Origin: Clostridiaceae bacterium
Lineage (GTDB): Bacteria; Bacillota; Clostridia; Lachnospirales; Lachnospiraceae
Length of the DNA stretch: 64,000 nt
Direction of reading: 5' to 3'
Assembly: GCA_910575585.1 (NCBI GenBank)
Contig: CAJTGF010000009.1
Location: 1-64,000, forward strand
The notes beneath the pieces are model-generated. The model searched no databases. It was not told where the DNA came from and saw only the letters and a program-made list of their open reading frames with translations. Positions 9,966 to 41,138 of this stretch are shown here, one piece after another (within the stretch, counting starts at the first letter, position 1; the number at the start of each line of letters is the position of its first letter). A program made the translations under genes and the position numbers.

Positions 9966-9983
9966 TCCTCTTCTCCTTTGCGC

Positions 9984-11996: not shown

Positions 11997-12001
11997 TCTC
12001 A

Positions 12002-12952: not shown

Positions 12953-12959
12953 ATTATCC

Positions 12960-15246: not shown

Positions 15247-15267
15247 AACACATTCCTCACAAAACAG

Positions 15268-17952: not shown

Positions 17953-18194
17953 TAAAATTCAACTCCATAATCCGCTTTCGCCAGAATCTCTTTACCCTTT
18001 TCAAATGAATTGAAATCAATAATGTCATCCGTATCCAGCATAATATCAAACGCATCTTCCAGCGCTGAAACAAGTCCCATATGGCCTACGGAATCCCACG
18101 CCTCAATATCCTGGTACTTCAAACTCTGAGCCTCTTTGGCACTTACAGAAAACGTCTCCTCAAACACCTTTGTGTACTTCTCCAGATTAGTCAT
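17952..18194 (-). CDS. acyl carrier protein
   Basis: The protein has 80 residues, is acidic, and has the standard four-helix ACP pattern. The phosphopantetheine serine is Ser35 in W-D-S-V-G-H-M, followed by the acidic recognition helix (L-E-D-A-F-D-I) and L-D-T-D-D-I-I-D-F-N-S. It sits directly before the acyl ligase and after the NeuB-family gene. It is dedicated to this operon, not housekeeping, judging by location and divergence. A holo-ACP synthase is not in the window. Confidence 0.85.
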   Translation of the reverse strand: MTNLEKYTKVFEETFSVSAKEAQSLKYQDIEAWDSVGHMGLVSALEDAFDIMLDTDDIIDFNSFEKGKEILAKADYGVEF

Positions 18195-18215
18195 TTTAAA
18201 TTCCTCCTACTTTTC

Positions 18216-19247: not shown

Positions 19248-19249
19248 TA

Positions 19250-21031: not shown

Positions 21032-21032
21032 T

Positions 21033-21497: not shown

Positions 21498-21972
21498 AGG
21501 TTCTTCCTCCATTGTCCATACCCTGATCCGGCATCACAAATTCAAACTCAGCACTGCAGGCCTCTTTTCCGTTTATCAATCCCCGGACATTTCCCCTGCC
21601 TTTTACTCCATCCCATTCCACAAGCCTGGTCTCTATGTCTAATCGGGAACCGGGTACAACCCGCTCCTTCAACCGTATATTTTTGGCAGCTACTGCACGC
21701 ACAGTTTTTCCCTCATTGCCATCCATTGTAAGAACAGTCAGCGTGAGCATCTGAAACAGAGCTTCCATTTGAATCATTCCGGGCATCAGTGGACTGCCAG
21801 GAAAATGTCCCTGGAAATACCCTTCATTTACCGTCACATTTTTATAACCAGCCGCAGAACTTCCCGGAATAACTTCCTCTGCTTTATCAATCAATAAAAA
21901 TGGGTAGCGGTTCGTAACATATTTCTTAATCTGGCATATTCCTAAATTTTTAAGTGTTCTATTATCATCCAT
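21490..21972 (-). CDS. 3-hydroxyacyl-ACP dehydratase (FabZ-like)
   Basis: The protein has 160 residues, the standard FabZ length, with a complete active-site segment: G-H-F-P-G-S-P-L-M-P-G-M-I-Q-M-E-A-L (catalytic His and Glu). N-R-Y-P-F-L-L-I-D opens the fold and P-G-S-R-L-D closes it. It dehydrates a 3-hydroxyacyl thioester on ACP to the 2-enoyl form. It overlaps the next, degenerate FabZ-like gene by a few bases. It is the most canonical of the four FabZ-like genes here. Confidence 0.85.
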   Translation of the reverse strand: MDDNRTLKNLGICQIKKYVTNRYPFLLIDKAEEVIPGSSAAGYKNVTVNEGYFQGHFPGSPLMPGMIQMEALFQMLTLTVLTMDGNEGKTVRAVAAKNIRLKERVVPGSRLDIETRLVEWDGVKGRGNVRGLINGKEACSAEFEFVMPDQGMDNGGRTYG

Positions 21973-22005
21973 ACAATTATGTCCTATAACCTTTCCTGAT
22001 CATAC

Positions 22006-22758
22006 TTACATGAAAAGTCCGCCATCGACTCCTATGATTTCTCCTGTGATATAGCCCGACATGCCTGATGCTAAAAACAAAACTACTTTAGCCACTTCTT
22101 CAGGCTGTCCTAAACGTTTTAAGCCGATTGCCTCTATACTCTCACGAATCTTATCAGGACTCATCTCATAAAACATATCTGTATCTATGCTTCCAGGAGC
22201 AACGCCATTCACTTTGATGTTTTGCTGCGCAAACTCCTTTGCCCAGCTTTTTGTAAGGCTTGCAACCGCTCCTTTGGTAGCTCCATATACAGACTGTCCA
22301 ACATTTCCCCTTAGGCCAACAATGGATGAAATATTGATAATGGAACCTCCATCAGGGTTACGCTTCATCAATCTCAATGCACCCTGAACCATATGGATTA
22401 CACCGACTATATTAACCGAAAGCATTTTTTCTATTTTGTTGTCATCAATCATTTCAATAACGCCGTCAAATTTTACTCCGGCATTATTTACAAGGATATC
22501 CAGTCTTCCTTCTTGTTCTGTCTTTATCTTTTTTATGCAATGCATGATAGAGGGCTTGTCCGTAATATCAAAAACTACAGGTATCACTTTCCCGTCAAGA
22601 GTATCACACTGTTCTTTCAGCATCTTTGATGACTGTTCTTTAAGAATATTCGCATACACCACTGCCCCCTGGTCAGCGAAAAGGCTGCATATGCTTCTTC
22701 CTATGCCCTGATCGCATCCAGTGACCAAAGCGACCTTATTTTGCAATAATTTATCCAT
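22006..22758 (-). CDS. short-chain dehydrogenase/reductase (FabG-like)
   Basis: About 250 residues from the ATG at 22758 (GGAGAG upstream). The Rossmann motif is A-L-V-T-G-C-D-Q-G-I-G; N-N-A-G, the catalytic S-S-I and Y-G-A-T-K are present, and the C terminus G-Y-I-T-G-E-I-I-G-V-D-G-G is that of FabG. It would reduce a 3-oxoacyl thioester, or oxidise the reverse, using NADP(H). A paralogous gene lies one base upstream; two reductases suggest two distinct reactions or chain positions. Confidence 0.85.
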   Translation of the reverse strand: MDKLLQNKVALVTGCDQGIGRSICSLFADQGAVVYANILKEQSSKMLKEQCDTLDGKVIPVVFDITDKPSIMHCIKKIKTEQEGRLDILVNNAGVKFDGVIEMIDDNKIEKMLSVNIVGVIHMVQGALRLMKRNPDGGSIINISSIVGLRGNVGQSVYGATKGAVASLTKSWAKEFAQQNIKVNGVAPGSIDTDMFYEMSPDKIRESIEAIGLKRLGQPEEVAKVVLFLASGMSGYITGEIIGVDGGLFM

Positions 22759-22773
22759 TAAATCTCTCTCCAA

Positions 22774-23487
22774 TCATAGAACTAAACCGCCGTTTACACG
22801 TATTACTTCACCGGTAACATAACTTGCCATATCAGAAGCTAAAAACAATACAACATCTGCGATTTCCTCTGGTTTGGCGATTCTTCCCAATCCGATTTTT
22901 GAGAGTTCAATTTTCAATTCCTCTTCACTGATGATATTGAACATGTCTGTATCGACATTACCTGGTGCAACCGCATTAACGCGGATTCCTTCAGCCGAAT
23001 ACTCTTTCGTCCATGTCCTCGTCATACTCTCAACAGCGGCTTTCGTTCCGGCATAAACAGTTTGTCCAATATCGCTTTCCTGCGCCATAATTGATGACAT
23101 ATTGATTATGCATGGAGAGTCAGATTTTCTGAGCAATCTGATTGCTGCTTTTGTTACATTCAGCAGCCCGAATACATTGGTATCATAAATCTTTTTTACC
23201 GATGCATCAGCTACCATCTCCAAGCGTTCAAGAATAGTAATTCCCGCATTATTCACAAGAATATCTATTTTTCCCGCTTCTTTCTTTACTGTCTTAATAC
23301 ACTCCTTTACGCTCTGGGGATCACATACATCCAGCTGCACAGGGATGATCTTCCCTTCCCTGTTTTCAACAGTTCTAAATCCGCCATAAACAACGGCTCC
23401 CTCTGATGCTAATTTCTCACAGACAGCATTCCCGATCCCCCTGCTTGCACCAGTGACAAGGGCCGTCTTGTTTTCCAGCATCAACAT
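22774..23487 (-). CDS. short-chain dehydrogenase/reductase (FabG-like)
   Basis: About 237 residues from the ATG at 23487, with AGGAGG seven bases upstream. It carries T-G-A-S-R-G-I-G, N-N-A-G-I-T, M-S-S-I-M, Y-A-G-T-K and a C-terminal G-E-V-I-R-V-N-G-G-L. It is shorter than its downstream paralogue in the region after the first strand (Y-G-G-F-R-T-V-E-N). It is adjacent to FabZ-like genes on both sides of the reductase pair and belongs to the same acyl module. Confidence 0.85.
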   Translation of the reverse strand: MLMLENKTALVTGASRGIGNAVCEKLASEGAVVYGGFRTVENREGKIIPVQLDVCDPQSVKECIKTVKKEAGKIDILVNNAGITILERLEMVADASVKKIYDTNVFGLLNVTKAAIRLLRKSDSPCIINMSSIMAQESDIGQTVYAGTKAAVESMTRTWTKEYSAEGIRVNAVAPGNVDTDMFNIISEEELKIELSKIGLGRIAKPEEIADVVLFLASDMASYVTGEVIRVNGGLVL

Positions 23488-23504
23488 ACACGTACCTCCT
23501 GTCA

Positions 23505-23975
23505 CTATTTAATTTTCGGTTTAAACTGGTTAAATACATCCGGAATGATTATGGTCGATTCCAGCTCACATGCCAATTCATCTGCGATGTAGCCTTTTAC
23601 CTGTCCATGGCAAAGACCGCGTTTAAATGATAGGATTTTGGCACACATATCAAGGCGGTCACCTGGCTTTACTTCCTGATGGAATGTTCCTGCATGGCGG
23701 TAACCATGGACGATCTTCCCTTCCATCCCCTCAGTAGTCAATATGGCAACCGTAAGCATCTGTGCCATTGCCTCTACCTGAAGACATCCAGGCATATTGG
23801 GATCTCCCGGAAAATGAGCGGGAATATACCATTCATTATTTGTTATATTCTTAAATCCTTTTGCATACTTGCCAGGAACTACTTCTGTAACCCTGTCAAT
23901 AAGCAAAAAGGGGTATCTGTTTGGCTGATATCGTAATAATTCAACAGCATCTAATGAAAATGCTTTATCGCCCAT
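23505..23975 (-). CDS. 3-hydroxyacyl-ACP dehydratase (FabZ-like)
   Basis: About 156 residues from the ATG at 23975, preceded by GGAGGAG; the open frame extends to 24005. N-R-Y-P-F-L-L-I-D, A-H-F-P-G-D-P-N-M-P-G-C-L-Q-V-E-A-M with catalytic His and Glu, and P-G-D-R-L-D are present. It ends F-N-Q-F-K-P-K-I-K, which helps show that the longer tail of the neighbouring fabZ-like gene is abnormal. It should be active. Confidence 0.8.
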   Translation of the reverse strand: MGDKAFSLDAVELLRYQPNRYPFLLIDRVTEVVPGKYAKGFKNITNNEWYIPAHFPGDPNMPGCLQVEAMAQMLTVAILTTEGMEGKIVHGYRHAGTFHQEVKPGDRLDMCAKILSFKRGLCHGQVKGYIADELACELESTIIIPDVFNQFKPKIK

Positions 23976-24023
23976 CTTAATTCTCCTCCTTACTAAACGA
24001 TACATTTGTGTATTAAATCAAAA

Positions 24024-24620
24024 TCAAGATGCTCTCAAAGCATTCATTATTCTGTTGTTGTAATTTCGCCATTGCAGCGCTTCAAAACAAATTACTTCAG
24101 CTCTGTACCCCCCCCGAGCTAATAATTCTGTTTTATTCCTTGGTTTAAAGTCTTTTAACACATCGGGAATTGCGATAACAAGGTCAGCCTTACAGGCAAT
24201 CTTGCCATTAAGAAATCCAACAGACTTTCCTTTCGCCAAACCTCTTTTATATGAGTCAAGTTCCGAAACGATATCAAGCCTGTCACCGGGAATGATCTTT
24301 TCTCTAAAGTCAGTCATTGTCTTAATAAAAGCAGTCTTCTTTCCTTCATTACCTGGAATGGTTAAAAAAGACATAAGAAACATCTGGGTTAAAGCTTCCA
24401 TTTGTACAAACCCTGGTACATTGGGTTCATCCTCAAAATGCGCCGGAAAGAACCACTCGTTATAGGAAAAATTCTTATAACCGCTGGCTTTCCTTCCTGC
24501 TATGACCTCTTCAACATAATCAATAAAAAGAAGAGGGTATCTGTTCTGCTGAAATTTTTGAATTTCGAAAGCATCCATATCTTTATATGTAATGATGCCC
24601 TCCTTTTCAACTTTTCGCAT
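24024..24620 (-). CDS. FabZ-like dehydratase with an abnormal C-terminal tail
   Basis: The protein has 198 residues; GAGGAG precedes the ATG. The fold is normal: N-R-Y-P-L-L-F-I-D, A-H-F-E-D-E-P-N-V-P-G-F-V-Q-M-E-A-L. The catalytic His and Glu are kept, but the usual H-F-P-G is H-F-E-D. Paralogues end soon after the F-K-P-R/K segment. Here the frame runs on for about 38 residues through an eight-G tract (24108-24115, minus strand). With seven or nine G the protein would stop within a few codons. The tail is therefore probably a read-through product of tract-length change. Confidence 0.75.
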   Translation of the reverse strand: MRKVEKEGIITYKDMDAFEIQKFQQNRYPLLFIDYVEEVIAGRKASGYKNFSYNEWFFPAHFEDEPNVPGFVQMEALTQMFLMSFLTIPGNEGKKTAFIKTMTDFREKIIPGDRLDIVSELDSYKRGLAKGKSVGFLNGKIACKADLVIAIPDVLKDFKPRNKTELLARGGYRAEVICFEALQWRNYNNRIMNALRAS

Positions 24621-24642
24621 CTTTTTCGTCTCCTCTCAAATA

Positions 24643-25782
24643 TCAGTGCTTTTTCGTCACAAATTTGATAACCTCATCACAGATTCTCTGAACATCATCA
24701 TAGGTCATATATAAATTCATGGGCAAGCTGACAATATGCTCACTGACATAATCAGCATATGGACAGGTTCCCTTAGCATAATCATACATCTGATAGTTAA
24801 TGTTATTGGTGTAATGAACACCCGGGTAGATTTGTGCCGCATTCAATGCCACCATTAATTCATCACGATTTTCAACACAAATCTGAAACAGATGGCAGGC
24901 GCTTTCACATCCGTCTTCAAGCCTTACCAACTTAATCTCATCAGGATACCGCAAAAAACGGTCCTGATACCACCGGACCAGCTGACGCCGGTATGCATTG
25001 TCGCGGTCAAGATACTTTAGCTGTACCAGGCCGATGGAAGCCATGACGGAATTGCCGTGTCCCTTATCTCCCACATACTCTACATCATACCGCCACTTAT
25101 AGTTGCCGGAGTCCGAACTTCTGGCATATGTATCCTTATTAATCCCAAGCCAGCATTTCTTCCGGACGATCTCGTCAAACTCCCCTTTCTTGAAGCAAAT
25201 CATTCCGCTGTCTGCTGTAGGCAGATTCTTGACCGCCTGGTAGGAATAAACTACCACCTCCGCCTCCCGTCCCGGAATCTCCCCTTTATAGCGTGTTCCA
25301 GCCATATGAGCTGCATCCAGGATCAGTTTCAAATCATGCTCTTCACAGATCTTCACTATCTCATAGTAATGTCCCATGTTGCCGCCAAGACCTACATACA
25401 TGACCGCCCTTGTTCTATCCGTAATATGTTCCAGCACTGACTTGGGAGTCATGCACATGGTATCATCAATATCGGCAAACACAGCCTTCATGCCTGACTT
25501 AAGGATAGCATGATTGGAAGAAACAAACGTAATGGGTGTTGTGATGATTTCATCGCCGTCCTTCCAGCCGTACTGCTCCTTCAGAATATCAACCGCCATA
25601 TAAAGTCCAATGGTAGATGAGTTCAGATAGTGGGCAAACGGCATCCCGGTATATGCTTTCCATGCATCCTCAAACTTCACAGTTTTAAATCCCATGCCGG
25701 TCCATCCTGCTTCCAGGCACTCCCGAATCTCTGCCAGGCACTCGTCAACTTCATACTTTGCTTTAAATAACTGAATTCCCAT
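24643..25782 (-). CDS. DegT/DnrJ/EryC1-family PLP aminotransferase
   Basis: The protein has 379 residues. It shows A-H-Y-L-N-S-S-T-I-G-L-Y in the cofactor-phosphate region, D-A-A-H-M-A-G-T, and Y-S-Y-Q-A-V-K-N-L, whose lysine forms the Schiff base. It is not close to the WecE-type gene at 8832. Family members transaminate keto sugars bound to nucleotides, such as VioA or DesV, but an acyl aldehyde made by LuxC is another possible substrate because the gene sits at the head of the acyl module. A gap of about 70 bp separates it from the upstream HTH gene. Confidence 0.8.
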   Translation of the reverse strand: MGIQLFKAKYEVDECLAEIRECLEAGWTGMGFKTVKFEDAWKAYTGMPFAHYLNSSTIGLYMAVDILKEQYGWKDGDEIITTPITFVSSNHAILKSGMKAVFADIDDTMCMTPKSVLEHITDRTRAVMYVGLGGNMGHYYEIVKICEEHDLKLILDAAHMAGTRYKGEIPGREAEVVVYSYQAVKNLPTADSGMICFKKGEFDEIVRKKCWLGINKDTYARSSDSGNYKWRYDVEYVGDKGHGNSVMASIGLVQLKYLDRDNAYRRQLVRWYQDRFLRYPDEIKLVRLEDGCESACHLFQICVENRDELMVALNAAQIYPGVHYTNNINYQMYDYAKGTCPYADYVSEHIVSLPMNLYMTYDDVQRICDEVIKFVTKKH

Positions 25783-25852
25783 TGAGCTTCCCCTCCTTCT
25801 TGAACGCTTTTATTTTATGGGCGGACGGTCCCAAAAACAACCGACTATCCGT

Positions 25853-26899
25853 TTACCTCTCCCGCCCTGAAACCCGGTCGCAAAGGCTTAAAATATAGGC
25901 GCCATACTCTGTTGTGCCATATCTGTTTCCATGCATCCTCAGCTGTTTTGTCGTAATCAGTCCCCGACGCCAGGCCACCTCCTCCAAACAATAGACATTC
26001 ATGCCACACTTATCCTGAACGATTTTCAAAAAAGCCGACGCTTCCTGAACATGATCGAAGCTATCCACTTCAATCTCTACAAAGCCTCTGTCCAGCATCG
26101 CCACATACATCTCATTTTCTGATGTATATTTGTATATAAATGTGGGAATATCCTCTTCTTTTGCAACATCATGAAGTAATCGTGATGGAAACAGCAAAAT
26201 TGGGATATCCGAATAATCGTACTGTGTACGTAAGGGTTCATCCTCATTGGAACTTACGATCTTCTTATTCACGTCCATCTGAATATGAGATGACCTGCAA
26301 TTTCTTTTTGGCAGCGCCAGCACGGTAAAGCGTTCTTTATCTATCATCGCTTTCTGAAAGAATCTTGTCTGATCAACTCCATAAAGAAGACACCTTCCAT
26401 ACACGAGCATCGTGTTCATTGCCTCTCCATCCCATTTTTTTACTGCATCACAGAGCTTTCCCGTAAAACTAAAAAGCCTGATCCCATACTCACTGCCATC
26501 TCCCATTGTCTCATCCATGTATCTCTTTTCCCGCTCATTGCAGACAATCAGTATATTCCGAATTCCCACAAGAAGAAAATAACTGAGCAAAAAGTAAACG
26601 ATTGGTTTATCGTAGACCATAGTATGAATGCCAATACCATATGGATTTTCCTCTGTAACAATAATCCCCTGCCAATTCCCGTCATGGTGAACCACATCTC
26701 CCGCCAGAAGACTGTCTGAGTCCGTGTCCAGAAGAATCGACAGCCGCCTCAAATATCCGATTTCCGGCAGGCCTATGCCCCTTTCCCATTTGGAGACTGC
26801 TTTATCGCTGATGCCGATACGGTCTGCCAGATCTTTTTGAGTGTAGCCTGCCCGTTTGCGCAGGCATGCTATAGCCTTTCCTATCTTGTTCACATCCAT
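25853..26899 (-). CDS. HTH (Xre) domain fused to degenerate RmlA-like nucleotidyltransferase
   Basis: The protein has 348 residues. Residues 1-66 form a Cro/C1-type HTH (Y-T-Q-K-D-L-A-D-R-I-G-I-S-D-K-A-V-S-K-W-E-R-G). The remainder aligns with glucose-1-phosphate thymidylyltransferase: Y-D-K-P-I-V-Y-F-L-L-S-Y-F-L-L-V-G-I-R-N-I-L-I matches the RmlA Y-D-K-P-M-I-Y-Y-P-L segment, and the C-terminal C-L-E-E-V-A-W-R-R-G-L-I-T matches C-P-E-E-I-A. The catalytic G-G-x-G-T-R-L loop is replaced (T-E-E-N-P-Y-G-I-G-I). It is probably a regulator sensing a nucleotide or nucleotide sugar, not an enzyme. It overlaps the upstream transferase gene by 10 bp. Confidence 0.75.
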   Translation of the reverse strand: MDVNKIGKAIACLRKRAGYTQKDLADRIGISDKAVSKWERGIGLPEIGYLRRLSILLDTDSDSLLAGDVVHHDGNWQGIIVTEENPYGIGIHTMVYDKPIVYFLLSYFLLVGIRNILIVCNEREKRYMDETMGDGSEYGIRLFSFTGKLCDAVKKWDGEAMNTMLVYGRCLLYGVDQTRFFQKAMIDKERFTVLALPKRNCRSSHIQMDVNKKIVSSNEDEPLRTQYDYSDIPILLFPSRLLHDVAKEEDIPTFIYKYTSENEMYVAMLDRGFVEIEVDSFDHVQEASAFLKIVQDKCGMNVYCLEEVAWRRGLITTKQLRMHGNRYGTTEYGAYILSLCDRVSGRER

Positions 26900-28083
26900 G
26901 GGCGCCTGTATACTTTCTTTCGCGCATAAGCTTTGCGTTCACGAAAATGTATCTTTAATTTCTCTAAAAACACTTGAATGCCGCCACTCCTTAAATAATA
27001 GAAACTAAGGTAAACCAAATCTGCCGGGCGAAGGAAACAATACCAGATTTTGCTTAGATAAAACCCTTTACAAGGATTCATCTCATTGTTATACTCCACT
27101 GCCTCCGGAGTCTGTTTTTTGAAGTTTTGAATAATGGATTCCTCTGTAAAGTTCTCTCTCAAATTTTCCTGTGACGCCAAAATACAATTTGTCCGCTGTT
27201 TCCCATCCAGTACCGCTGTTTCCAGCTTATCTAACCATGACTCACTGGTATTTTCTGCCAATAATCCATTTATTCCATCCTGCACTGCCTCTACGTAAGG
27301 AATCACTTTTGAATAAACCCCGCATACTCCAGACATGCTGTACTCGATATACTTATTAAAATACTTACATCTGGTAAACCGGTTATCTCCAAGAGGAGCT
27401 ATGCCAATGTCAAATTTTTCTTTTTTCATAAACTCACGATACTCAAGCAAAGGCATTCCCTTTACATACCTGATTTTTGTTCTGCCTTCATATTCTGAAA
27501 GGTCAGGTTTCACACCTATAAATGTGATTGAAATTTTATTTCCATATTTCCCAATCAGCTTGCAAACCGCGGTTTTCGCATATTCATTAAACAGTAACAA
27601 ATGCCCGGGATTGGCAGCATATACGATCTTCACTCTATCGTTTTCAGACTTTGTATGTTCCGCGATCTGCTCCGCTCTGACGATTGTATCTGTCTTTATG
27701 AAACGCTTTCCAACAGTATGCTTTTTGTAATCCTGTCCTATAAAATTACTTGATGACCATATCGCGTTAGAGTAATGCAGAGTTTTCTTAAGACCACTTC
27801 GTCTCCAATACGCCATTGGATTATAATGGAGCAGATCGTCATCACAAAAGGTAATAACAAACCGTCCGGATTCCGCGGCTCTCTTAGCCACAGCAGCAGA
27901 CAACACATCATTAGGCCGTAAGAATACAATAATTTCATGCCCATGGATGTCTGCCGGTTTTACGTCCCATAATAAAATAAAATGAGAACGGATGCCATGA
28001 TCAGGGTTAAGATGTAAAAATATATCCTTCATTGTGCTGATTGTTGGCATGTCACGCTCATATATGAATAAAAGACTGCTCAT
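26890..28083 (-). CDS. glycosyltransferase (GT-B type), paralogue of the next gene
   Basis: The protein has 397 residues. It resembles GT4/Glyco_trans_1-type transferases: V-K-I-V-Y-A-A-N-P-G-H, I-S-I-T-F-I-G-V-K-P-D-L-S, G-I-A-P-L-G-D-N-R-F-T-R-C-K-Y-F-N-K-Y-I-E-Y and G-I-N-G-L-L-A-E-N. It is clearly paralogous to the product of 28099-29310 along its whole length, so the two likely arose by tandem duplication and may add two related sugars. It is cytoplasmic with a basic C-terminal tail. Confidence 0.75.
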   Translation of the reverse strand: MSSLLFIYERDMPTISTMKDIFLHLNPDHGIRSHFILLWDVKPADIHGHEIIVFLRPNDVLSAAVAKRAAESGRFVITFCDDDLLHYNPMAYWRRSGLKKTLHYSNAIWSSSNFIGQDYKKHTVGKRFIKTDTIVRAEQIAEHTKSENDRVKIVYAANPGHLLLFNEYAKTAVCKLIGKYGNKISITFIGVKPDLSEYEGRTKIRYVKGMPLLEYREFMKKEKFDIGIAPLGDNRFTRCKYFNKYIEYSMSGVCGVYSKVIPYVEAVQDGINGLLAENTSESWLDKLETAVLDGKQRTNCILASQENLRENFTEESIIQNFKKQTPEAVEYNNEMNPCKGFYLSKIWYCFLRPADLVYLSFYYLRSGGIQVFLEKLKIHFRERKAYARKKVYRRPWM

Positions 28084-28098
28084 TTTTAATCCATCCCT

Positions 28099-29310
28099 TT
28101 AATTATCAAGTTTATCGTTTCTTGCGGCTCTTTGATCATGAATGTAACTTTGGATTTTGACAGCGGTTCCCCGGATGCCTGCTAATTTCATATACACAAC
28201 GACTAAATAAAAGCATTCTATAAATCTAAACAAAAGAAACTTAGCCTTTGATGATATTATGCAAACCCGCTTATTTTTTCTCCTGCATTCCAACTCTGGA
28301 ATATCTTCCTTAAATTTCTGAATAATATGATTTGGTTCCATCTGTGTAGTAATTAAATCATATGCATTTTGATAGCAGTTTTTTCTCAGTTCACAATCAT
28401 CAATTGCTTTACACAGTGCCTGAAACCATGAATCTGCATCATTGTCTGCCAGAAATCCGTTTTTTTCATCTTCGATAATCAGTGTATAAGGTAATGCGCG
28501 GCTGTAAATCCCTACTGTTCCAGCTATGGTATACTCAATAAACTTATTAAAATACTTATACTTGGTGAACTCATTTGACTCTAAAGGCGAAAGACCAATA
28601 TCATAATCGCCTCTTTGAATCTCCTTTCGATATTGATTAAGCGGCATTGCACTTATATAGCGTATCTTAATCTGCCGCTCAAACCGGGATACATCCGGAT
28701 GAACGCCGAAAAATGTAAATGAAACTCTCCTTCCATATCTTTCAATTAATTTGGGAATCGTCGGAAGAATAAACTGATCAAACATTCCCTCATGGTTTGC
28801 CCCTGCTGCGTATACAATTTTAACTTCTTCTTCAGCACATTTTGTTTTCTTTTCCTCGGGAGATATTAACAGGTTCTGTTCAACTGCTGTATGAATTGTA
28901 ACTGACCTATTGGCCGGTATTAATTGGGCGTATTTCTCCCCTAGTGCCTTATTGGATGACAATATCAAATCCGTACAAGTGAACCCATCTCTGACCGCCT
29001 TTTTTCTCCATGGGAGATACTGCACTCTATTTACTGCCGATCTGGGCAGGCTCAGTACATCATCATCAAAAAACTGTATGCAGAAAGCACCTGATGAGCG
29101 GGCTTTCTTAATAAGCATTTGCGCAAGAAGATCCTGGTTCCTTACAAAAACCACAGCATCTGCCCAATGCAACCATCTTTCCGTAACTTTATCCGTTGTC
29201 ACAAACCTGCTCTTTAACCCATGCTGTATCGCCGTTTTTCCCATAAATATCTCGTACATCCCCTCAGATGTTGCCATCTTTCTTTGATATACAAATAAAA
29301 TATTTGACAT
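28099..29310 (-). CDS. glycosyltransferase (GT-B type)
   Basis: About 403 residues from the ATG at 29310, after an AGAGGGG ribosome site; the frame is open to 29337. The C-terminal Rossmann half has I-V-Y-A-A-G-A-N-H-E-G, F-T-F-F-G-V-H-P-D-V-S, Y-D-I-G-L-S-P-L-E-S-N-E-F-T-K-Y-K-Y-F-N-K-F-I-E-Y and N-G-F-L-A-D-N. It is paralogous to the downstream transferase. It would add a sugar to the lipid-linked repeat unit at the cytoplasmic face. Confidence 0.75.
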   Translation of the reverse strand: MSNILFVYQRKMATSEGMYEIFMGKTAIQHGLKSRFVTTDKVTERWLHWADAVVFVRNQDLLAQMLIKKARSSGAFCIQFFDDDVLSLPRSAVNRVQYLPWRKKAVRDGFTCTDLILSSNKALGEKYAQLIPANRSVTIHTAVEQNLLISPEEKKTKCAEEEVKIVYAAGANHEGMFDQFILPTIPKLIERYGRRVSFTFFGVHPDVSRFERQIKIRYISAMPLNQYRKEIQRGDYDIGLSPLESNEFTKYKYFNKFIEYTIAGTVGIYSRALPYTLIIEDEKNGFLADNDADSWFQALCKAIDDCELRKNCYQNAYDLITTQMEPNHIIQKFKEDIPELECRRKNKRVCIISSKAKFLLFRFIECFYLVVVYMKLAGIRGTAVKIQSYIHDQRAARNDKLDN

Positions 29311-29323
29311 AAATTCCCCTCTG

Positions 29324-30005
29324 TCATATATCTTCAAATATTTGTTGATTTATAATGCGGTCAAACAATTCAACGGTAAGTTCCGTTGTCAAAAGTAAGT
29401 TCCTGTTCTCTTTTGTAAGCTGTTTAATATTATGCAGATCGAAATTTTCAATCTTTTCAATTACTTCATTCGGCAGCCTGCGCTTTATGACTTTCCCATT
29501 AATAACGATGGAATACTTTGGAATGTCTTTTGATACTACCGAACCTGCGCCTATCACACTTCCTTTTCCTATAGTAACACCTGACAAGATTGTGACGCCC
29601 TGGCATATCCATACATCATCCTCGACAATTATAGGCCCCTTGGAACCTGTTGGTTCTTTTACCGTTTCGCCTAACACATGACTTATATAAGGAAAAGTTG
29701 TAATCCTGTCCAGAGGATGTACCCCCCCCAAGCAAGAAAGAAACATCCTCTGCTATTGAACAGTAATTGCCAATAACCAGACGTTCCTTTGGGTTGTCCC
29801 AGCAGAGCACCCTTAATCTCCCATATGTACTGTCACCTACGATCACTTTCGAGCTGTCAAATTTATTAGCAGCTGTGGTTCCGTTGTGACAGTTTTTCTC
29901 TCTCCAGTTCTTTTGAAACGCAATAAAGTCCACTTTAATTTTCAATGACAGTATAATCTCTTTTCTGCATTTCCAGAAAACTTTTAGCTTTTTAAAGAAA
30001 CCCAT
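29324..30005 (-). pseudogene. CatB/Vat-like hexapeptide O-acetyltransferase, out of frame at a poly-G tract
   Basis: Two frames make one protein of about 225 residues. The first (from 30005) runs G-N-Y-C-S-I-A-E-D-V-S-F-L-L-G-G. The second continues V-H-P-L-D-R-I-T-T-F-P-Y, then V-W-I-C-Q-G-V-T-I-L-S-G-V-T-I-G-K-G-S-V-I-G-A-G-S-V-V, the left-handed beta-helix. The shift lies exactly at eight G on the minus strand (29722-29729); seven would join them. The rest is uncorrupted, so this looks like a contingency switch in the OFF state. A sequencing error in the homopolymer is the alternative. Confidence 0.8.
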
Positions 30006-30025
30006 ATATTTTTAATCCTCAAAAA

Positions 30026-31489
30026 TCATCTGCCAGCCTGTGATGTTTTTATCTTTTGCTTCAGCAACCCAGCCACTTCCTGATAACATACATTTTTCGT
30101 CACCATTGAACCTGCAAGATAAACTGCAATCCCCACAAATATTTGCATAAACATGATCACACTGTCATTCTGTATAGGAAGCCTCCCGGTCAAGCCTACT
30201 GCAATTGCCATACACAGGCACAAAAATACCACAGCTGCCATATCCTTTAGCCATTCAAAATATTTGTATTCAATTTTGTTTCTCGTAAACAGCTGCGTAA
30301 TAATCACATTGATAATTGCAACTCCGGCAGAAACAGCGGAAATACCATATATATCCGTCTCCAGTACAAATACCGCAATACTAACTCCTATGATAAGAAG
30401 CAGCATTCTTATAACCTCAATAAACACCCCCTTCTTTGGCTCTCCCAAGGCATATATTAGCTGCATATTGATTGACCTTAAGGGGTTTAACCCATAATAA
30501 ACACAGGCAAAAATTAAAATCGGAACGCATGCACTCCATTTTTCAGTAAAAAGGAAAGGAATTAATTTTTCTCCTATGAGAGCTAAACCGGTCATCATGG
30601 GAAAAATTAAATAGCAGGATACCGATACAATTTTTTTACAAATCCTTTTTAATGCCACAGCGTCATTTTGACAGGAGGAAAATGCAGGAAGCATTACACT
30701 GCTGACAGCGCCAAACACCTGGAGACAGATCATCTCTGGAAGCTGATTGCCCTTGCTGTACAGCCCCAAATCAGACATTGAATAACGCTTCCCCAGCAAG
30801 GCGCTTGAATAATTATTCCCTATAAAATCCACAAGTGTCGCCATAAGCAAAAACATGCTGAAGCCTGCTAATGATTTCATCCTTTCTCTCTCGATATGCC
30901 TGGTAGGTCTCCACTTGATCCGCATAAAAAGAACTGCATTAGTAATAGCATCCCGCGATAATGTACAAATAACCAAAGCCCATACACCGGCTCTTAAACA
31001 GGCAAGTATTACTCCTGCCATGCCACTGACAGAATTTGCGATTACATTGGCAATACACAGTTCTCTGAAACGGAATTCCCTTGTGATTATCGCTGTCTGT
31101 ACATTTCCAAATGCGCATAAAAATAAAGACAGCATTTGAACCCTAAGCACAATTATAAGAACAGGCTCTTCATAGAATGATGCGATCACCGGAGAAATAA
31201 GAAAGAACAATATATAGCATATTGCCGCAAAAACAAATCCAATATAGAACGCATTATTATAATCTATCTCATCCACATACTCTTTCCTGATCAACCCTGC
31301 GCTAAGTCCGCTCTGAACAATAATGGTTGTAAGACTGATAAAAATATTGGTCAAAGCTATTATTCCGTAAGCTTTCGGAAACAGTATTCTTGCCAGGATA
31401 ACCGATATGATCAGGGAAACTCCCTTCGTAGATACAGCTTCTATGATTTTCCACATAGCGCTTGCCGCAAATGTCTCTTTTCTGATCAT
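30026..31489 (-). CDS. wzx: polysaccharide flippase (Wzx-like, MOP superfamily)
   Basis: The protein has 487 residues with 12-14 predicted membrane helices. It opens with W-K-I-I-E-A-V-S-T-K-G-V-S-L-I-I-S and the L-A-R-I-L-F-P-K-A-Y-G-I-I-A pattern of Polysacc_synt_3 (WzxC/TagF-type) exporters. It moves the undecaprenyl-linked repeat across the membrane. With the EpsG-like polymerase it forms the Wzx/Wzy export core of the operon. Confidence 0.85.
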   Translation of the reverse strand: MIRKETFAASAMWKIIEAVSTKGVSLIISVILARILFPKAYGIIALTNIFISLTTIIVQSGLSAGLIRKEYVDEIDYNNAFYIGFVFAAICYILFFLISPVIASFYEEPVLIIVLRVQMLSLFLCAFGNVQTAIITREFRFRELCIANVIANSVSGMAGVILACLRAGVWALVICTLSRDAITNAVLFMRIKWRPTRHIERERMKSLAGFSMFLLMATLVDFIGNNYSSALLGKRYSMSDLGLYSKGNQLPEMICLQVFGAVSSVMLPAFSSCQNDAVALKRICKKIVSVSCYLIFPMMTGLALIGEKLIPFLFTEKWSACVPILIFACVYYGLNPLRSINMQLIYALGEPKKGVFIEVIRMLLLIIGVSIAVFVLETDIYGISAVSAGVAIINVIITQLFTRNKIEYKYFEWLKDMAAVVFLCLCMAIAVGLTGRLPIQNDSVIMFMQIFVGIAVYLAGSMVTKNVCYQEVAGLLKQKIKTSQAGR

Positions 31490-31511
31490 AATTCAATACA
31501 TCTCTCCTCAT

Positions 31512-32618
31512 TTATGGAAACATACTATTTTCCCCAAGAAATACAAAAACAGATGATGACGTCCCTAAATACGGCAATGTCTGATAAAAAGCAACCACAT
31601 ACATCCATGCGAAAACCATTAGTATATATACATTAATTTTCATTCCTCTACACATACGAACCTTTTTCCTATGCTCTCGAATTATATAGGCCGTCATAGC
31701 ATACAATACAAGATCAATACCTGTCACAACGTAAAGCAGGCGCATATATGTATCATTCAGCCTTAAAAAAGGAATATACAAAATCGTGATAATGTTGAGA
31801 TTACTTATTATTTTCGCGGCATACCGTCCGCTTCCCGTAACATCATATCTGCTGACTATCTTTTTTGATCTTTGTGTCAGATATATGTTCCCAAACAAAA
31901 TCATAAGTTCTGCCGAAAATCCCTTTAAATTCGGAAAACCTTCTTTTCCGATTCCTCCGCTTAACCAGGTTATTATCTTTTCTCTGCTGGTAAAGCATCT
32001 GACCAAATTAAGCAAAATGTCTGTATACCGAACCACCAATATTCCTATGACCACAAATATAAAATATAAAACAATATTTATCCTTTTAGTATCTTTTTTT
32101 ACCAAAAGCATAACGGAAAACAGTACGGACGAATAATGCACCAAAACAGCCATTATCAGAAATATACAGTAAACTTTTACATTTGTTTTCGATCTGTCAA
32201 ACAAAAATGTCATTCCATACATCATGATGACACACGCTAAAGCCGCTCTCATACCCGATACGTGCCACGGGAATAAAGCTATCATGTACATCGCTGCTGC
32301 CAAAGTCTTTGGTTGATTAATTTTCCGAAATGTAAGATTCAGAAAAAAAAGCAACAGCGTCGCTTCAACCATCCGAAAGCTTGTAAATGAAAATCCCATT
32401 GACCTGCAGGTAAGCATTAAAAACGTGAATAATGGCTCAAAAGCATCCCGCATACCCTCATTGTAGATCCATTCATAAATAGAAGTATCCGGCGCTCCTG
32501 TATTCAGCGAAAACAGAAGCCACATATAAAACATAATCCCCCAGTACAGCAGCTTCGATCTGGGCATAAAAAACGCAGCAGCAAACAATACGACTAATAT
32601 TATTATTGACATATTCAT
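31512..32618 (-). CDS. EpsG-family polysaccharide polymerase (Wzy-like)
   Basis: The protein has 368 residues and about ten membrane helices. EpsG-family signs are D-T-S-I-Y-E-W-I-Y (the D-x-x-x-Y segment in the first outer loop), E-P-L-F-T-F-L-M-L, and R-A-A-L-A-C-V-I-M-M-Y-G. It probably links repeat units outside the cell. It follows the CgeB-like transferase gene by 3 bp and precedes the flippase. Confidence 0.8.
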   Translation of the reverse strand: MNMSIIILVVLFAAAFFMPRSKLLYWGIMFYMWLLFSLNTGAPDTSIYEWIYNEGMRDAFEPLFTFLMLTCRSMGFSFTSFRMVEATLLLFFLNLTFRKINQPKTLAAAMYMIALFPWHVSGMRAALACVIMMYGMTFLFDRSKTNVKVYCIFLIMAVLVHYSSVLFSVMLLVKKDTKRINIVLYFIFVVIGILVVRYTDILLNLVRCFTSREKIITWLSGGIGKEGFPNLKGFSAELMILFGNIYLTQRSKKIVSRYDVTGSGRYAAKIISNLNIITILYIPFLRLNDTYMRLLYVVTGIDLVLYAMTAYIIREHRKKVRMCRGMKINVYILMVFAWMYVVAFYQTLPYLGTSSSVFVFLGENSMFP

Positions 32619-32621
32619 TTC

Positions 32622-33533
32622 TCATCCATGGATCATCATTTTTAATTTCTGATCAAAATCAAATTTCTTTATCCTTTCATTCGAAACTTCTTTAACAGCT
32701 CTATTCAGGAAGACATCCAATTCATCAAAACTGTCCTCTCCCAAAATGAAATAAGTATTCTTATCATAAAGTTCAAAATCATGTATCCCACGGTTATTTG
32801 TAATGCATTTAATCCCGTCAAAAACCGCTTCCATTTCTCTTTGTGTGATACTCCTCTGTCCCTCCGGGACAACATTCAAAACTGCCTTTGTGTCAATCAA
32901 CAAGTCAAGATACTCCTCATAAGTCAATAGCTTCTTATAATACTTTCTCTTAAATTTTAAAAACTGTCGGTCAGCGCAGATATGGAAATAGGTTCGCAGA
33001 CCTTTATCATTCAGTTCTCTTTCCAACTGAAGCAGCTGCCCAGCTCGCCCTTTGTCTCGTCCCACATAGACAACATCATATTTTGGATTTTGTCTTGGCG
33101 TTCTTTTATATTCCATAAAAAAAGAAGGGCTGCTCCATTTCATTGAGTAACGTTTACAATCATCCTGATCATAAGACCATTTTTCTACGAACTTACTAAC
33201 ACAGTCCGGATTAATCGTCCTATCTGCTCTATTCTCATAAGATAATATAATTTGGGAATCGGGATGATTACCTTTAATCCAGTCTAAATAGTCCGGTAAG
33301 ATTAAGGGATCAAAAACCACAAACACCTTGCAGTCTGCTTTTCGTACACGGGCATTGTACCAGATCTTCTGATAAGGCAGTTTCAGTCGAAACCATGCCT
33401 CGCGCATAATCCTAAGCAGAATACTATTCCCCTTGTAGGGAGTATATATTTGATATCCATAATGTTGAATCGCATCAAACACATAGTCCTTCTTTAGTTT
33501 TGCTCTAACGATGCATACATCCTTTTTATCCAT
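32622..33533 (-). CDS. probable glycosyltransferase, CgeB-like or capsule type
   Basis: About 303 residues from the ATG at 33533 (GGAG upstream). The C-terminal half has Y-D-V-V-Y-V-G-R-D-K-G-R-A, then Y-E-E-Y-L-D-L-L-I-D-T-K-A-V-L-N-V-V-P-E-G-Q-R-S-I-T-Q-R-E-M-E-A, a layout like GT-B transferases in which the late E contacts the nucleotide sugar. No close family could be named. Position among polymerase and transferase genes supports a role in repeat-unit assembly. Confidence 0.55.
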   Translation of the reverse strand: MDKKDVCIVRAKLKKDYVFDAIQHYGYQIYTPYKGNSILLRIMREAWFRLKLPYQKIWYNARVRKADCKVFVVFDPLILPDYLDWIKGNHPDSQIILSYENRADRTINPDCVSKFVEKWSYDQDDCKRYSMKWSSPSFFMEYKRTPRQNPKYDVVYVGRDKGRAGQLLQLERELNDKGLRTYFHICADRQFLKFKRKYYKKLLTYEEYLDLLIDTKAVLNVVPEGQRSITQREMEAVFDGIKCITNNRGIHDFELYDKNTYFILGEDSFDELDVFLNRAVKEVSNERIKKFDFDQKLKMMIHG

Positions 33534-33566
33534 GCTTTTTCTCCACACTTTCAATAGTTTCGGATA

Positions 33567-36533
33567 TCAATCACTCACAAGACCATATACTGTCTTCATC
33601 TGCTTTTCTACCGCGGAAAGACTATATTTTTTTAATGCCTGCTTATTTTTCTTTACACTGTCTGCGGATGTCTTTTTCAAACAATCACGGGAATTATTTG
33701 TAAGGTTCTTTAAGGTCCTTACAACATCATCAACCCTATTTTCATCAAATATATAATCTCGATCTTTGACCAGATCCGTATTTCCCCGTATATCGCTGCA
33801 TACCACCGGAGTCTCACAGGCTATCGCCTCCATAAGAGCTAAGGACAGCCCCTCCTGGTGTGACGGGAATACAAACAAATCAGCCGCCTGGCACAGTTCA
33901 CTTATATCTGTTCTGAACCCAAGAAACATTACCTGATCGTCCAACTCTAAACTATGGACAAGGAACTTCAATTCTGTTTCCAACTCGCCTTTGCCTGCAA
34001 TCATGTATCGGATACCGGAATTCTTCATTTCTCCCAAAGCCTTGATCACCACTTCATGATTCTTACGAGGTATCAATTCACCCACTGAAAGCAAAAGTAT
34101 TGTCTGAGAATCCGCACCTAACTCTCTGCGCTTTTCTTCCGGATCTGCCATACCGCTGTTAAATTTATCTGTATCGATCCCCACTCCGGGAATATACACA
34201 ATTTTCTTAGCAAAAAATTTATTCTTCGCCCTATTATAATCTTCTTTATTAATTGTAATAAGAACATCCGTAATCCTGCTCAGCTCCTTTTCTATTGGAT
34301 AATAGATCAGCCAGTTTTTCTTGGGAGCACCGTCATAGAAATGAAAGCCATGAGCTGTATATATTTTTTTTATTCCGTTTTTCTTTCCTATGATACGGCT
34401 GACAACACCTCCAACAGGACTATGTCCATGAATAAAACTATAACCGTCATCAGCGGTAACGCAATGATGTTTCCGATGATTTTGCGGCGCCGCACTCCCC
34501 TTGACCACATCATCAAGCTGTTTTAACGCCTTTAAGACTCCACGGACATCCGCAGCGTTACGCTCAAAATCTATGTGGTAGCAATCAACCTTCAGTTCAT
34601 CCAGCTGAATCAGAAGTTCCTGTATCTTTTCATTCGTGCAGGTGCTTCCTTTCTTAAAATTTGCTGCAACATCTACGTCAAATCCCATAGAAATCAGGAG
34701 TTTGATGTTAGGGATATTAAACTGATCGATCATTGATGCCACAGACGCAACGATCAGCGCTTTTTTATTATACTTGTCAACCTTCATTGACTCCGCGGCA
34801 AATATTGACTCTTTGAGACCACAGACCTCATAGGGAAAGGAGTATCGGGACAGCGCCTGATCATAGCAGCTATTCCCAAAAGCCTTATTAACCAATCCGC
34901 TGATCTTCCCTGGAACATGACACGCCATCCTCACTGCCGGATTTAGAATTTTGGCGCTCCGCACCGGATTGCCAACCGCCAAACCAATCTCCTCCACCAT
35001 CTGACTCGTTTTTGTATACTCCCCATTCTGTGGAAAATACACGCCATTTTCTCCGGATAGTATTAGCCCGCACAAAAACTCGCACAAATTATCAATGTAC
35101 AGCACAGAGCGGGCATTATCAATATCAGGAAAAATCGGCAGCCTATGAGCCATCTTGCTTAATATCTGATAATTCCCCTTGCTTCCCGGTCCGTAAATCA
35201 TGGGAGGTCTTAGGACAGCAACCTTAAAGTCATCCGTTTCAAGGCTTCTCACCCCCTTATCTGCCTGCCACTTTGAATCTCCGTAGAAATTAGACGGTGA
35301 TGGCTGCGTATCCCGTGTGATCATCTTTTCATGTCCTAATCCGCCGTTCTCACCATAGATGATCATAGAGGACATGAAAACAAATTGCTTTACGCCTGCA
35401 TCTTTAGCCTTCTTAGCTGTTTCTATGGCTAAATCTGTATTTACCTTATAATACATTTCTTTAATCTCATCCGATACGTTTCCCACATCCGCGTGGGCGA
35501 TTCCAGCCACATGGTAAACCGTATCATAAGGAGCGAAAACGCAATCTCTCCATCCTCCGTCCGTCATATCTATCACTTCTATAGTCACAGTCGGATAATG
35601 TTTGGCTGCATATTTTCTGAGGTATTCGCCTATATAACTGCCGGCTCCTGTTATGAGAATCTTTTTCTCAGCATTCCTGTCAATCTTTATTTCCTTATCA
35701 CAGCCCAGCACAACTGCCGGGTCAGCAGCGGGTACACCTGGCCGCAAAGCTTTGTATATTTTTCCTGTACCGCCCTCAACTACGCCATCGTGACGCATAA
35801 CAGAGCTTATGGTTTCAAAAAAACAAAGGATATCCGTCATCAGCCCCAGCCTTTTCACATATTCTCCATCAAGCCGTGCTTTCTCTGATATCTCCAATTC
35901 ATCCCTGCCATTGATCTGTGCCAGCCCGGTCAGTCCGGGCATAACACTGTTGGCGTCATATTTTTCCCGTTCAAACACTAAATCGTCCTGATTCCACAAG
36001 GCAGGACGGGGACCTATGATACTCATCCTGCCACAGAATATATCCCAAAGCTGGGGAATCTCGTCCAGGCTAGTCTTCCTTAAAATCCGTCCAACTTTCG
36101 TTGTATACTTGTCTGGATCGGTAAGCTGGTGTGTTGGAACATTATGAGGAGCATCGGTACTCATAGTCCTGAATTTATGGATCATCACATAATGCTTGTC
36201 CTTCCCAATCCGCTTCTGTACAAAAAAAACAGGCCCAGGATCATCAATCCACACTGCAAGACTGATTCCCACAAATAGAGGCCACAACAACACAAGACCG
36301 CCGAAAGACAGTGCTTTATCCAACACAGGTTTTATTTTTCTCTCGTATGTGGTTACTTTCCTCACATTGCGGCAGTCCTTATCTGTATCCACCGTCATAT
36401 TATAATGGAGATATGGATTATCATCATCAATACGATTGTCCTCTGTTCTTTTCTTTGCCACGGCGCTCATTACTCCATAAACAGCCCCTAAGCCTGCTGC
36501 TGTGACCAAAAAATTTCTAGTGTTCCTGCCCAT
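33567..36533 (-). CDS. three-domain fusion: sugar transferase, SDR epimerase/reductase, GT4 transferase
   Basis: About 988 residues in one frame. Residues 65-275 form a bacterial sugar transferase (WcaJ/PglC type) with one membrane helix, D-D-P-G-P-V-F-F-V-Q-K-R-I-G, H-K-F-R-T-M, T-S-L-D-E-I-P-Q-L-W and S-I-I-G-P-R-P. Residues 293-590 form an extended SDR with G-A-G-S-Y-I-G and Y-G-D-S-K. Residues 600-990 form a GT4 with G-K-G-E-L and E-G-L-S-L-A-L-M-E-A. It could modify the first sugar, load it on undecaprenyl phosphate and add the second. The chosen start is the ATG at 36533; a TTG lies two codons upstream, right after the loaP stop. Confidence 0.85.
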   Translation of the reverse strand: MGRNTRNFLVTAAGLGAVYGVMSAVAKKRTEDNRIDDDNPYLHYNMTVDTDKDCRNVRKVTTYERKIKPVLDKALSFGGLVLLWPLFVGISLAVWIDDPGPVFFVQKRIGKDKHYVMIHKFRTMSTDAPHNVPTHQLTDPDKYTTKVGRILRKTSLDEIPQLWDIFCGRMSIIGPRPALWNQDDLVFEREKYDANSVMPGLTGLAQINGRDELEISEKARLDGEYVKRLGLMTDILCFFETISSVMRHDGVVEGGTGKIYKALRPGVPAADPAVVLGCDKEIKIDRNAEKKILITGAGSYIGEYLRKYAAKHYPTVTIEVIDMTDGGWRDCVFAPYDTVYHVAGIAHADVGNVSDEIKEMYYKVNTDLAIETAKKAKDAGVKQFVFMSSMIIYGENGGLGHEKMITRDTQPSPSNFYGDSKWQADKGVRSLETDDFKVAVLRPPMIYGPGSKGNYQILSKMAHRLPIFPDIDNARSVLYIDNLCEFLCGLILSGENGVYFPQNGEYTKTSQMVEEIGLAVGNPVRSAKILNPAVRMACHVPGKISGLVNKAFGNSCYDQALSRYSFPYEVCGLKESIFAAESMKVDKYNKKALIVASVASMIDQFNIPNIKLLISMGFDVDVAANFKKGSTCTNEKIQELLIQLDELKVDCYHIDFERNAADVRGVLKALKQLDDVVKGSAAPQNHRKHHCVTADDGYSFIHGHSPVGGVVSRIIGKKNGIKKIYTAHGFHFYDGAPKKNWLIYYPIEKELSRITDVLITINKEDYNRAKNKFFAKKIVYIPGVGIDTDKFNSGMADPEEKRRELGADSQTILLLSVGELIPRKNHEVVIKALGEMKNSGIRYMIAGKGELETELKFLVHSLELDDQVMFLGFRTDISELCQAADLFVFPSHQEGLSLALMEAIACETPVVCSDIRGNTDLVKDRDYIFDENRVDDVVRTLKNLTNNSRDCLKKTSADSVKKNKQALKKYSLSAVEKQMKTVYGLVSD

Positions 36534-36539
36534 ATGCAA

Positions 36540-37070
36540 CTACCGAGTCCCTTCAACTATTTTATTAGTCTTCTCCGTGATTTCCAGCCCCAGCTCCGCC
36601 AGCTTCTCTTCTCCATGAATCCTCATGCTAATATATCCTTTCCGCTTGTGACGGTCTATTTTTTTTACTCTGGGCTCCATTCCCGTCAGCTCTCCCTGAA
36701 TCACTTTCAAAACTCCATCCCGAATCACTCCATAGGACATCCCAATCTCATTCCGACCGCCTGTCAGTTTCATTAAGAACTCTTCTTCTTCACACAAGAC
36801 AGGACAGATCACCCTGCTGCATCCAAAAATCTCTTCTGTCTCCAGCATCGCATTCCATTCGTTAAAAATAAGTCCTTGTATCTTTGTGACTACAAATAAA
36901 TATCCCGGCAGAAATCGCGCTCTCTCCTCATGCCACGCACCCAAATATCTTTTCTTCCTGACGCAGTACAGAATTCTGCAGTCATCAAAACTTCCACCAC
37001 GCGCCCGGCTCTGAATTTCCCGTTTTACAGTTTCCTCCAACCCCGGTTCGGTCTGAAGCACATACCACAT
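36540..37070 (-). CDS. loaP: NusG-family antiterminator (LoaP/UpxY-like)
   Basis: The protein has 176 residues. The NGN domain opens M-W-Y-V-L-Q-T-E-P-G and contains R-F-L-P-G-Y-L-F-V near residue 55. A KOW domain lies at about 115-165 (V-I-Q-G-E-L-T-G-M-E-P-R-V-K-K-I-D). Specialised NusG paralogues of this type head long polysaccharide or antibiotic operons and suppress termination inside them. As the first gene of a 33-gene, 32-kb operon behind an apparent invertible promoter, it fits that job. The ribosome site is GGAG about ten bases upstream. Confidence 0.85.
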   Translation of the reverse strand: MWYVLQTEPGLEETVKREIQSRARGGSFDDCRILYCVRKKRYLGAWHEERARFLPGYLFVVTKIQGLIFNEWNAMLETEEIFGCSRVICPVLCEEEEFLMKLTGGRNEIGMSYGVIRDGVLKVIQGELTGMEPRVKKIDRHKRKGYISMRIHGEEKLAELGLEITEKTNKIVEGTR

Positions 37071-37111: not shown

Positions 37112-37145
37112 TCGCTTAACTGTATATTAAGCGACACTTTTTATT
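37112..37145 (+). repeat. left inverted repeat of the invertible segment
   Basis: 34 bp, perfectly matching the reverse complement of 37313-37346. It contains its own dyad, TCGCTTAA (37112-37119) and TTAAGCGA (37127-37134) around CTGTATA. Read outward (minus strand) it is followed by ACATATAATG and has no T-run. Confidence 0.9.
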
Positions 37146-37242
37146 CGTTTTATTAACGTTAACGCTTGTAAAATTCTAATATTTACTTCGAAAATTAAGG
37201 AATTCTTTGAAGACTACTGAAAAAAATGACATCTTGACACAG

Positions 37243-37271
37243 TTGACATCCATTAGAATTGATGCTATAAT
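37243..37271 (+). promoter_or_regulatory. consensus sigma-A promoter inside the invertible segment
   Basis: TTGACA at 37243-37248 and TATAAT at 37266-37271 with a 17-bp spacer: both hexamers match consensus fully. It reads right. Start would be near 37278, and the transcript would end at the terminator at 37316-37355, giving an RNA of about 75-80 nt with no frame. Confidence 0.85.
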
Positions 37272-37312
37272 CAAACTCATTAAAGAAAATTGAAACTTTT
37301 TATATAAATTTA

Positions 37313-37346
37313 AATAAAAAGTGTCGCTTAATATACAGTTAAGCGA
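37313..37346 (-). repeat. right inverted repeat of the invertible segment
   Basis: 34 bp, perfect partner of 37112-37145. Bases just outside (CACTTTTTT) extend its internal dyad into a full terminator, which the left repeat lacks. Confidence 0.9.
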
Positions 37347-37355
37347 CACTTTTTT
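37316..37355. terminator. strong bidirectional terminator at the right repeat
   Basis: A 16-bp stem pairs 37316-37331 with 37339-37354 around a 7-nt loop, with T-runs on both strands. On the plus strand it stops the outward-pointing promoter; on the minus strand it stops transcripts coming from sigK copy A. Confidence 0.85.
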
Positions 37356-41135: not shown

Positions 41136-41138
41136 AGT

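Follow-up and report, generated by a model that had tools for sequence, protein, structure and literature searches.

Capsule operons of Bacteroides begin with NusG-type genes (UpxY), and the invertase FinA of B. fragilis is the serine recombinase Mpi. According to PMC3090145, the several polysaccharide operons in a Bacteroides fragilis genome are each preceded by an invertible promoter; the promoter of its large capsule is reported there to be OFF in all three sequenced strains and to be linked to the tyrosine recombinase Tsr19. For cwpV of Clostridioides difficile, PMC2784873 describes the trans-acting tyrosine recombinase RecV, a mostly OFF state and an OFF-specific intrinsic terminator. A preprint on Eggerthella lenta (PMC13174815) reports capsule clusters, loaP and a site-specific megabase inversion at a short inverted repeat. 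In an inverton survey of the hCom2 gut community Firmicutes_A show a median of 3 per genome, and the repeat groups are dominated by that phylum (PMC11892184). The main text of this survey contains none of the terms symbiosum, Hungatella and Lachnospir, and the repeats described here could be among the groups of its supplements. PMC10939037, searched for Firmicutes terms, contains none. As far as PMC13121745 describes it, capsule expression of Mediterraneibacter gnavus is apparently not phase-variable, hence the trait is seemingly not general in Lachnospiraceae. Our literature search, with most subscription papers outside its scope, did not find loaP-linked invertible promoters in Lachnospiraceae. 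Invertible capsule promoters are known as a kind, and the loaP-linked version of the Lachnospiraceae seems to be undescribed.

The element analysed here comes from a Hungatella-related gut bacterium and is located at 37112-37346 of the window, i.e. the whole 64-kb stretch of DNA under study. It resembles the B. fragilis loci, as PMC3090145 presents them, in that several polysaccharide operons per genome would each have an invertible promoter. In contrast to B. fragilis it belongs to another phylum, the repeats are unrelated and the first gene is LoaP-like instead of UpxY. Moreover a tyrosine recombinase is the candidate for the whole set, whereas FinA/Mpi serves most loci there; we liken this candidate to a master invertase in role, and it lies outside the Mpi/FinA family of serine recombinases. 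In the family described here the site seemingly doubles as terminator. With cwpV and RecV, as described in PMC2784873, the element shares the class Clostridia, a tyrosine recombinase in trans (a candidate in our case) and a mostly OFF state. In cwpV, however, the invertible segment does not include the promoter, and its inversion creates or destroys a terminator downstream of that promoter. In our case the promoter is part of the segment, which sets the element apart from a cwpV-type terminator switch; the promoter itself would turn and a fixed far site would end the transcript. The E. lenta inversion comprises ~2 Mb in the preprint's account and repositions clusters against regulators, whereas the segment described here is a promoter segment of 235 bp in another phylum.

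The promoter segment and the presumed operon behind it

The features are collected in Table 1. Both 34-nt arms are 100% complementary and are separated by 167 nt. The first-pass annotation had described perfect 34-bp repeats bounding 235 bp, a sigma-A promoter reading away from loaP and a 42-bp spacing to the first operon gene. All three were borne out: the promoter matches the consensus at 12/12 positions with TG preceding the -10 element, and the start codon of the loaP-like gene is located 42 nt from the left arm. Scanning an 800-bp stretch for promoters yielded five sites of at least 9/12 compared to a shuffled mean of 2.9, and the one within the segment is the single perfect match.

Table 1. 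Coordinates of the element, its operon and the candidate recombinase (window positions unless a contig is named).
Feature	Position	Strand	Remarks
Left (loaP-near) inverted-repeat arm	37112..37145	.	palindromic core 37112-37134
Left core	37112..37134		TCGCTTAA / 7-nt centre 37120-37126 / TTAAGCGA
Right (loaP-far) inverted-repeat arm	37313..37346	.	palindromic core 37324-37346, 7-nt centre 37332-37338
Consensus promoter	37243..37271	+	TTGACA-17-TATAAT, extended -10; points away from loaP (OFF)
Terminator-like hairpin on right site	37316..37354	.	A-tract, 16-pair stem counting A-T pairs, T-tract
loaP-like NusG-family antiterminator gene, first in operon	36540..37070	-	NCBIfam LoaP 111.9 bits; Pfam NusG over cut-off
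Second gene	33567..36539	-	sugar transferase, epimerase-like and glycosyltransferase domains
Remainder of presumed polysaccharide operon	5323..36539	-	EpsG, flippase-type Polysacc_synt, NeuB, DegT aminotransferases, glycosyltransferase 2, others
Candidate invertase, 328-aa tyrosine recombinase	G000 C100:3033-4016		paralogue C31:52920-53831

Three features had not been annotated before: a palindrome within each arm, the terminator-like character of the right arm and the membership of the element in a genome-wide family. The palindrome reads TCGCTTAA-7 nt-TTAAGCGA in each arm, and the centre of the right core equals that of the left core, inverted. In the right arm it extends to GTGTCGCTTAA-7 nt-TTAAGCGACAC, with 37321-37349 as the full palindrome, while the outer side of the left arm has neither the GTG...CAC extension nor a U-tract.

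The product of the first gene, termed loaP in the earlier annotation, exceeds the Pfam NusG cut-off and falls below the curated cut-off of the NCBIfam LoaP model NF033641 (111.9 vs 125 bits), hence the label “loaP-like”; in the own genome 4/15 match rows against this model are above the cut-off. A count of 33 operon genes had been proposed and is about right, since the minus strand has 34 partly overlapping ORFs of 80 aa or more from 5323 to 37070. These genes presumably form a single polysaccharide operon.

Tandem LoaP-like gene pairs head many switch loci (L009, L010, L013; in relatives e.g. L109, L111, L209). In the own genome the second gene of such pairs outscores the first against the LoaP model; the window locus has a single gene. 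Just beyond the switch, 37662-47197 contains Thy1, ORC-CDC6-like and N6-methylase genes as well as two large serine recombinases and is probably a mobile element.

Matched sites, orientation and far-site tails among relatives

Searching the own genome (G000) with the window segment led to matches on several contigs and to seven complete copies. Each has a TTGACA-17-TATAAT promoter, each adjoins a loaP homologue and each is OFF, the latter counting against inversion. The site is present in 5/26 congeneric genomes; in the remaining 21 it is absent when one mismatch is allowed, and a search for degenerate sites with up to 3 mismatches in G001, G004 and G005 was negative. A scan of named genomes returned 28 stretches from uncultured Hungatella MAGs, the uncultured bacterium CANDBT, Bacterium 1XD21-70 and [Clostridium] symbiosum ATCC 14940. 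Eight genomes bear the site (G000, G002, G003, G008, G024, C. symbiosum, 1XD21-70 and CANDBT). After manual removal of duplicate places this TTAA-type set consists of 39 loci, 33 with a pair and 6 without. In 28 of the 33 pairs a loaP gene is found within 400 bp, the remaining 5 being unscored; L016, L017 and L012 are single sites and were left out of the pair counts.

The 7-nt centre is identical (inverted) inside all 33 TTAA-type pairs from the eight genomes, even though 22 of these pairs deviate from the half-site consensus by at least one mismatch. Comparing centres between loci, merely 11/528 are identical, and 23 different centres occur. Loci of one genome seldom share a centre (six different centres among the seven copies of G000), but privacy is not strict: one centre is common to two loci in each of G000, G008 and CANDBT. 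Tyrosine recombinases require identical crossover centres for strand exchange, and a 7-nt central crossover flanked by inverted half-sites suits these enzymes and not serine recombinases. Centres which match within the pair and mostly differ between loci are thus the pattern expected of tyrosine-recombinase crossover sites, unlike transposon ends.

Two further G000 sites with the same centre lie on different contigs (L022:1202-1224 on C28, L012:5392-5414 on C131). A loaP-like gene adjoins one of them and an outward promoter the other, and their inner sides hold a DUF6017 gene and a PF00589 frame of 417 aa; this looks like an eighth G000 switch interrupted by a mobile element. The lone sites L016:6240-6261 and L017:6973-6995, one upstream of a loaP-like gene with a 6-nt centre and one without loaP, are perhaps dead switches or plain terminators.

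A second palindrome, TCGYAGAGT-5-ACTCTRCGA, occurs in 11/26 congeners but in 0/5 of the TTAA-type ones. This sister type was collected in 33 stretches, 27 of them with a pair. The centres are matched in 27/27 around a TTGACA-17-TRWAAT-like promoter beside loaP genes, and 16 of the pairs have loaP in the stretch.

Regarding orientation, 26 of the 28 scorable TTAA-type pairs are OFF and two are ON (L054 = G024:C77; L056 = G003:C98). The sister type shows 13 OFF and 3 ON among its 16 scorable loci, as tallied by eye. Pooling both types, 5/44 scorable loci are ON and 39/44 OFF (outward). Equal odds of ON and OFF are rejected (p 1.4e-7), whereby the loci are not independent and an assembly represents the majority state. 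This is clearest at a sister-type locus that is orthologous in two species (G017:C4 vs G009:C91): a 1446-bp segment is inverted site to site at 89% identity, whereas the flanks are collinear (left 1145 bp at 90%, right 613 bp at 84%) and the breakpoints fall at the sites. In the pairwise comparison of loci, all inverted relations involve one of the five ON copies except L071 vs L135, an 84-bp match that is probably due to chance or to a palindrome. We also considered mutual exclusion of ON copies in the same genome, by which a single capsule would be made at any time. The five ON copies are distributed over five genomes, as happens by chance in 44% of draws, and nothing is claimed.

Taken over the relatives, the family occurs in both orientations. 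The first-pass annotation of an invertible promoter in OFF orientation is supported by the recurrence of the cassette at loaP-like genes in eight genomes, by the matched centres, by ON copies in relatives and by the site-to-site inversion in the sister type.

The two sites of a pair differ in their flanks. The far site runs outward as CACTTTTT-like sequence and forms, together with the inner AAAAAGTG, a hairpin with A- and U-tracts. CAC/CAT closing the stem is present at 26/28 far sites vs 6/28 near sites. The tail positions 4-11 contain on average 5.8 U of 8 on the far side vs 3.1 on the near side, with the far side higher in 25/28 and 3 ties (Wilcoxon p 1e-5); these counts are partly conditioned by search patterns which required CACTT on some site side. 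For the seven G000 copies, found without this condition, the far tail is higher in 6 with 1 tie. In the ON copies L054 and L056 the U-tract is still on the far side, indicating that the flanks stay while the segment turns. In the window, our terminator scan flagged the right-site hairpin on the minus strand and not on the plus strand, because it counts A-T pairs as stem. By symmetry the hairpin would also stop plus-strand transcripts from the OFF promoter, a plus-strand reading that follows our own criterion. As the tail is found on the far site and is mostly missing from the near site, transcription from the OFF promoter is expected to be halted. OFF transcripts are predicted to end at the far site and ON transcripts to cross the near site. 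The same far hairpin may block upstream read-through into the operon.

A candidate recombinase that may act in trans

The own genome has 47 matches to PF00589. Leaving aside two weak matches, the hits to PF00589 in the five TTAA-type congeners gave 107 recombinase ORFs. Exactly five families are common to all five genomes at 45-55% identity: two are Xer-like, two correspond to the recombinases of a tandem pair, and the fifth includes C100 and C31 of G000. The two Xer-like families were taken for housekeeping Xer proteins, and the co-occurrence profiles cover the tandem pair and the C100 family. The latter is present at ≥56% identity in 8/8 site-bearing genomes, three of which were reached through site hits, and in 1/21 site-less congeners (Fisher p 9e-5 on the 26 congeners). 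The exception, G004, carries the recombinase at 78% yet no site even at 3 mismatches; this genome is 73% complete.

C100 and C31 score 89.3 and 88.5 bits against Pfam Phage_integrase (PF00589, cut-off 27.1) and also have the N-terminal SAM-like domain. They are not of the FimB/FimE type according to the NCBIfam tyrosine-type DNA invertase model: C31 reaches 24.5 bits vs the required 222, and C100 is absent from the matches. The C100 gene is preceded by sugar transferase and glycosyltransferase-2 genes and followed by a weak Wzz match (under cut-off). This arrangement, a polysaccharide cluster, is common to G000, G002, G003, G004, G008 and G024. In CANDBT (G028) the C100-family gene is located 3.1 kb from a site pair. 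An invertase encoded elsewhere in the genome, as envisaged earlier, was thereby found as a candidate through co-occurrence, and the C100 protein is the best candidate by correlation.

More distant C100 homologues (≤38%) in other congeners lie inside long sister-type segments (10 loci and L215). Re-examination of 17 loci with distant homologues gave 13 in which inverted repeats of 14 nt or more enclose the gene and 4 in which they do not (raw counts). Together with the co-occurrence of the C100 family and the TTAA-type site this suggests that each of two sister lineages serves its own site type, the C100 lineage in trans and the other in cis, as far as a correlation can indicate. L204:2698-4176, L214:2653-4091 and nine more are ~1.3-1.5 kb invertible segments, each encoding a tyrosine recombinase of its own next to an outward promoter. 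L249:1401-2836 and L250:1029-2457 (G001, G005) hold distant homologues enclosed by repeats of other sequence, perhaps further site types.

Proposed switch and alternatives

We propose that the tyrosine recombinase C100, perhaps with C31, would bind in trans both TTAAGCGA half-sites of each palindrome and exchange strands within the 7-nt centre. With centres matched in the pair and mostly private to the locus, flips would stay local. In the OFF state the promoter would fire into the loaP-far site, where the site and its outer CACTTTTTT tail would act as intrinsic terminator. After inversion it would fire through the tail-less loaP-near site into loaP, and LoaP would then let the polymerase read the long polysaccharide operon. 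We assign a probability of roughly 85% to this reading as a whole, i.e. a site-specific invertible promoter, currently OFF, which is one of a genome-wide set, is flipped in trans by a tyrosine recombinase with C100/C31 as best candidate, and is combined with a far-site terminator and control of a LoaP-led operon. Here we infer the inversion of the window copy, the recombinase activity, the termination and the operon control.

The promoter might invert by means of another enzyme, which we regard as unlikely though worth keeping in mind. One option is the tandem Xer-like pair (G000 C14:76006-77678; L042:278-1953). It was our first candidate, as it occurs in all five site-bearing congeners, and it is found in C. 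symbiosum as well; genomes that have the other site type carry diverged forms of it. It was dropped because the pair is conserved in 22/26 congeners, 17 of them site-less (Fisher p 0.56), and has no strong match in the site-rich CANDBT. Its tree seemingly tracks site type only loosely, with 7 label changes vs a shuffled mean of ~11 and genomes with neither site mixed in. The large serine recombinases at 43921-47197 are just 6.6 kb from the window copy, but are part of an apparent mobile element at this locus, the one surveyed for serine recombinases, and a 7-nt crossover between inverted half-sites is tyrosine-type.

Less probable still is a fixed cassette that does not invert, its outward promoter producing a short terminated, perhaps regulatory RNA while loaP is driven otherwise. 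The outward direction in 7/7 G000 copies and 39/44 scorable loci would fit, and the promoter-to-terminator distance would indeed yield a short RNA. The five ON copies and the exact inversion between orthologues contradict it, matched crossover centres would be purposeless without recombination, and an Rfam search gave no family match anywhere in the 64-kb window. Hardly credible, finally, is a dispersed MITE-like mobile element with the repeats as its ends and a promoter brought along by chance. The numerous copies in several genomes, each ending in inverted repeats, resemble such an element, but agreement within a copy combined with different centres between copies is the opposite of transposon ends; moreover a loaP homologue adjoins 28/33 pairs and near and far flanks differ consistently.

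Extending the preferred reading of a promoter flipped in trans, we lean towards a network in Lachnospiraceae that corresponds to the capsule switches of Bacteroides. The C100/C31 lineage would flip in trans the promoters of at least seven LoaP-led polysaccharide operons per genome, the site would double as an orientation-dependent terminator and mostly private 7-nt centres would prevent recombination across loci. The sister lineage inside its own segment would then represent a step between cis and trans control.

If true, capsule switching by promoter inversion at operons headed by a NusG-type gene has evolved, or been reassembled, in Gram-positive gut bacteria along lines similar to those in Bacteroides, using another recombinase and another antiterminator. 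A named enzyme and site would be available for testing, along with compact switches that combine promoter, crossover site and terminator in one unit, and the matched pairs of recombinase lineage and site type make recombinase-site recognition testable. Such a network would account for the variable surfaces of Hungatella-like species and of [Clostridium] symbiosum.
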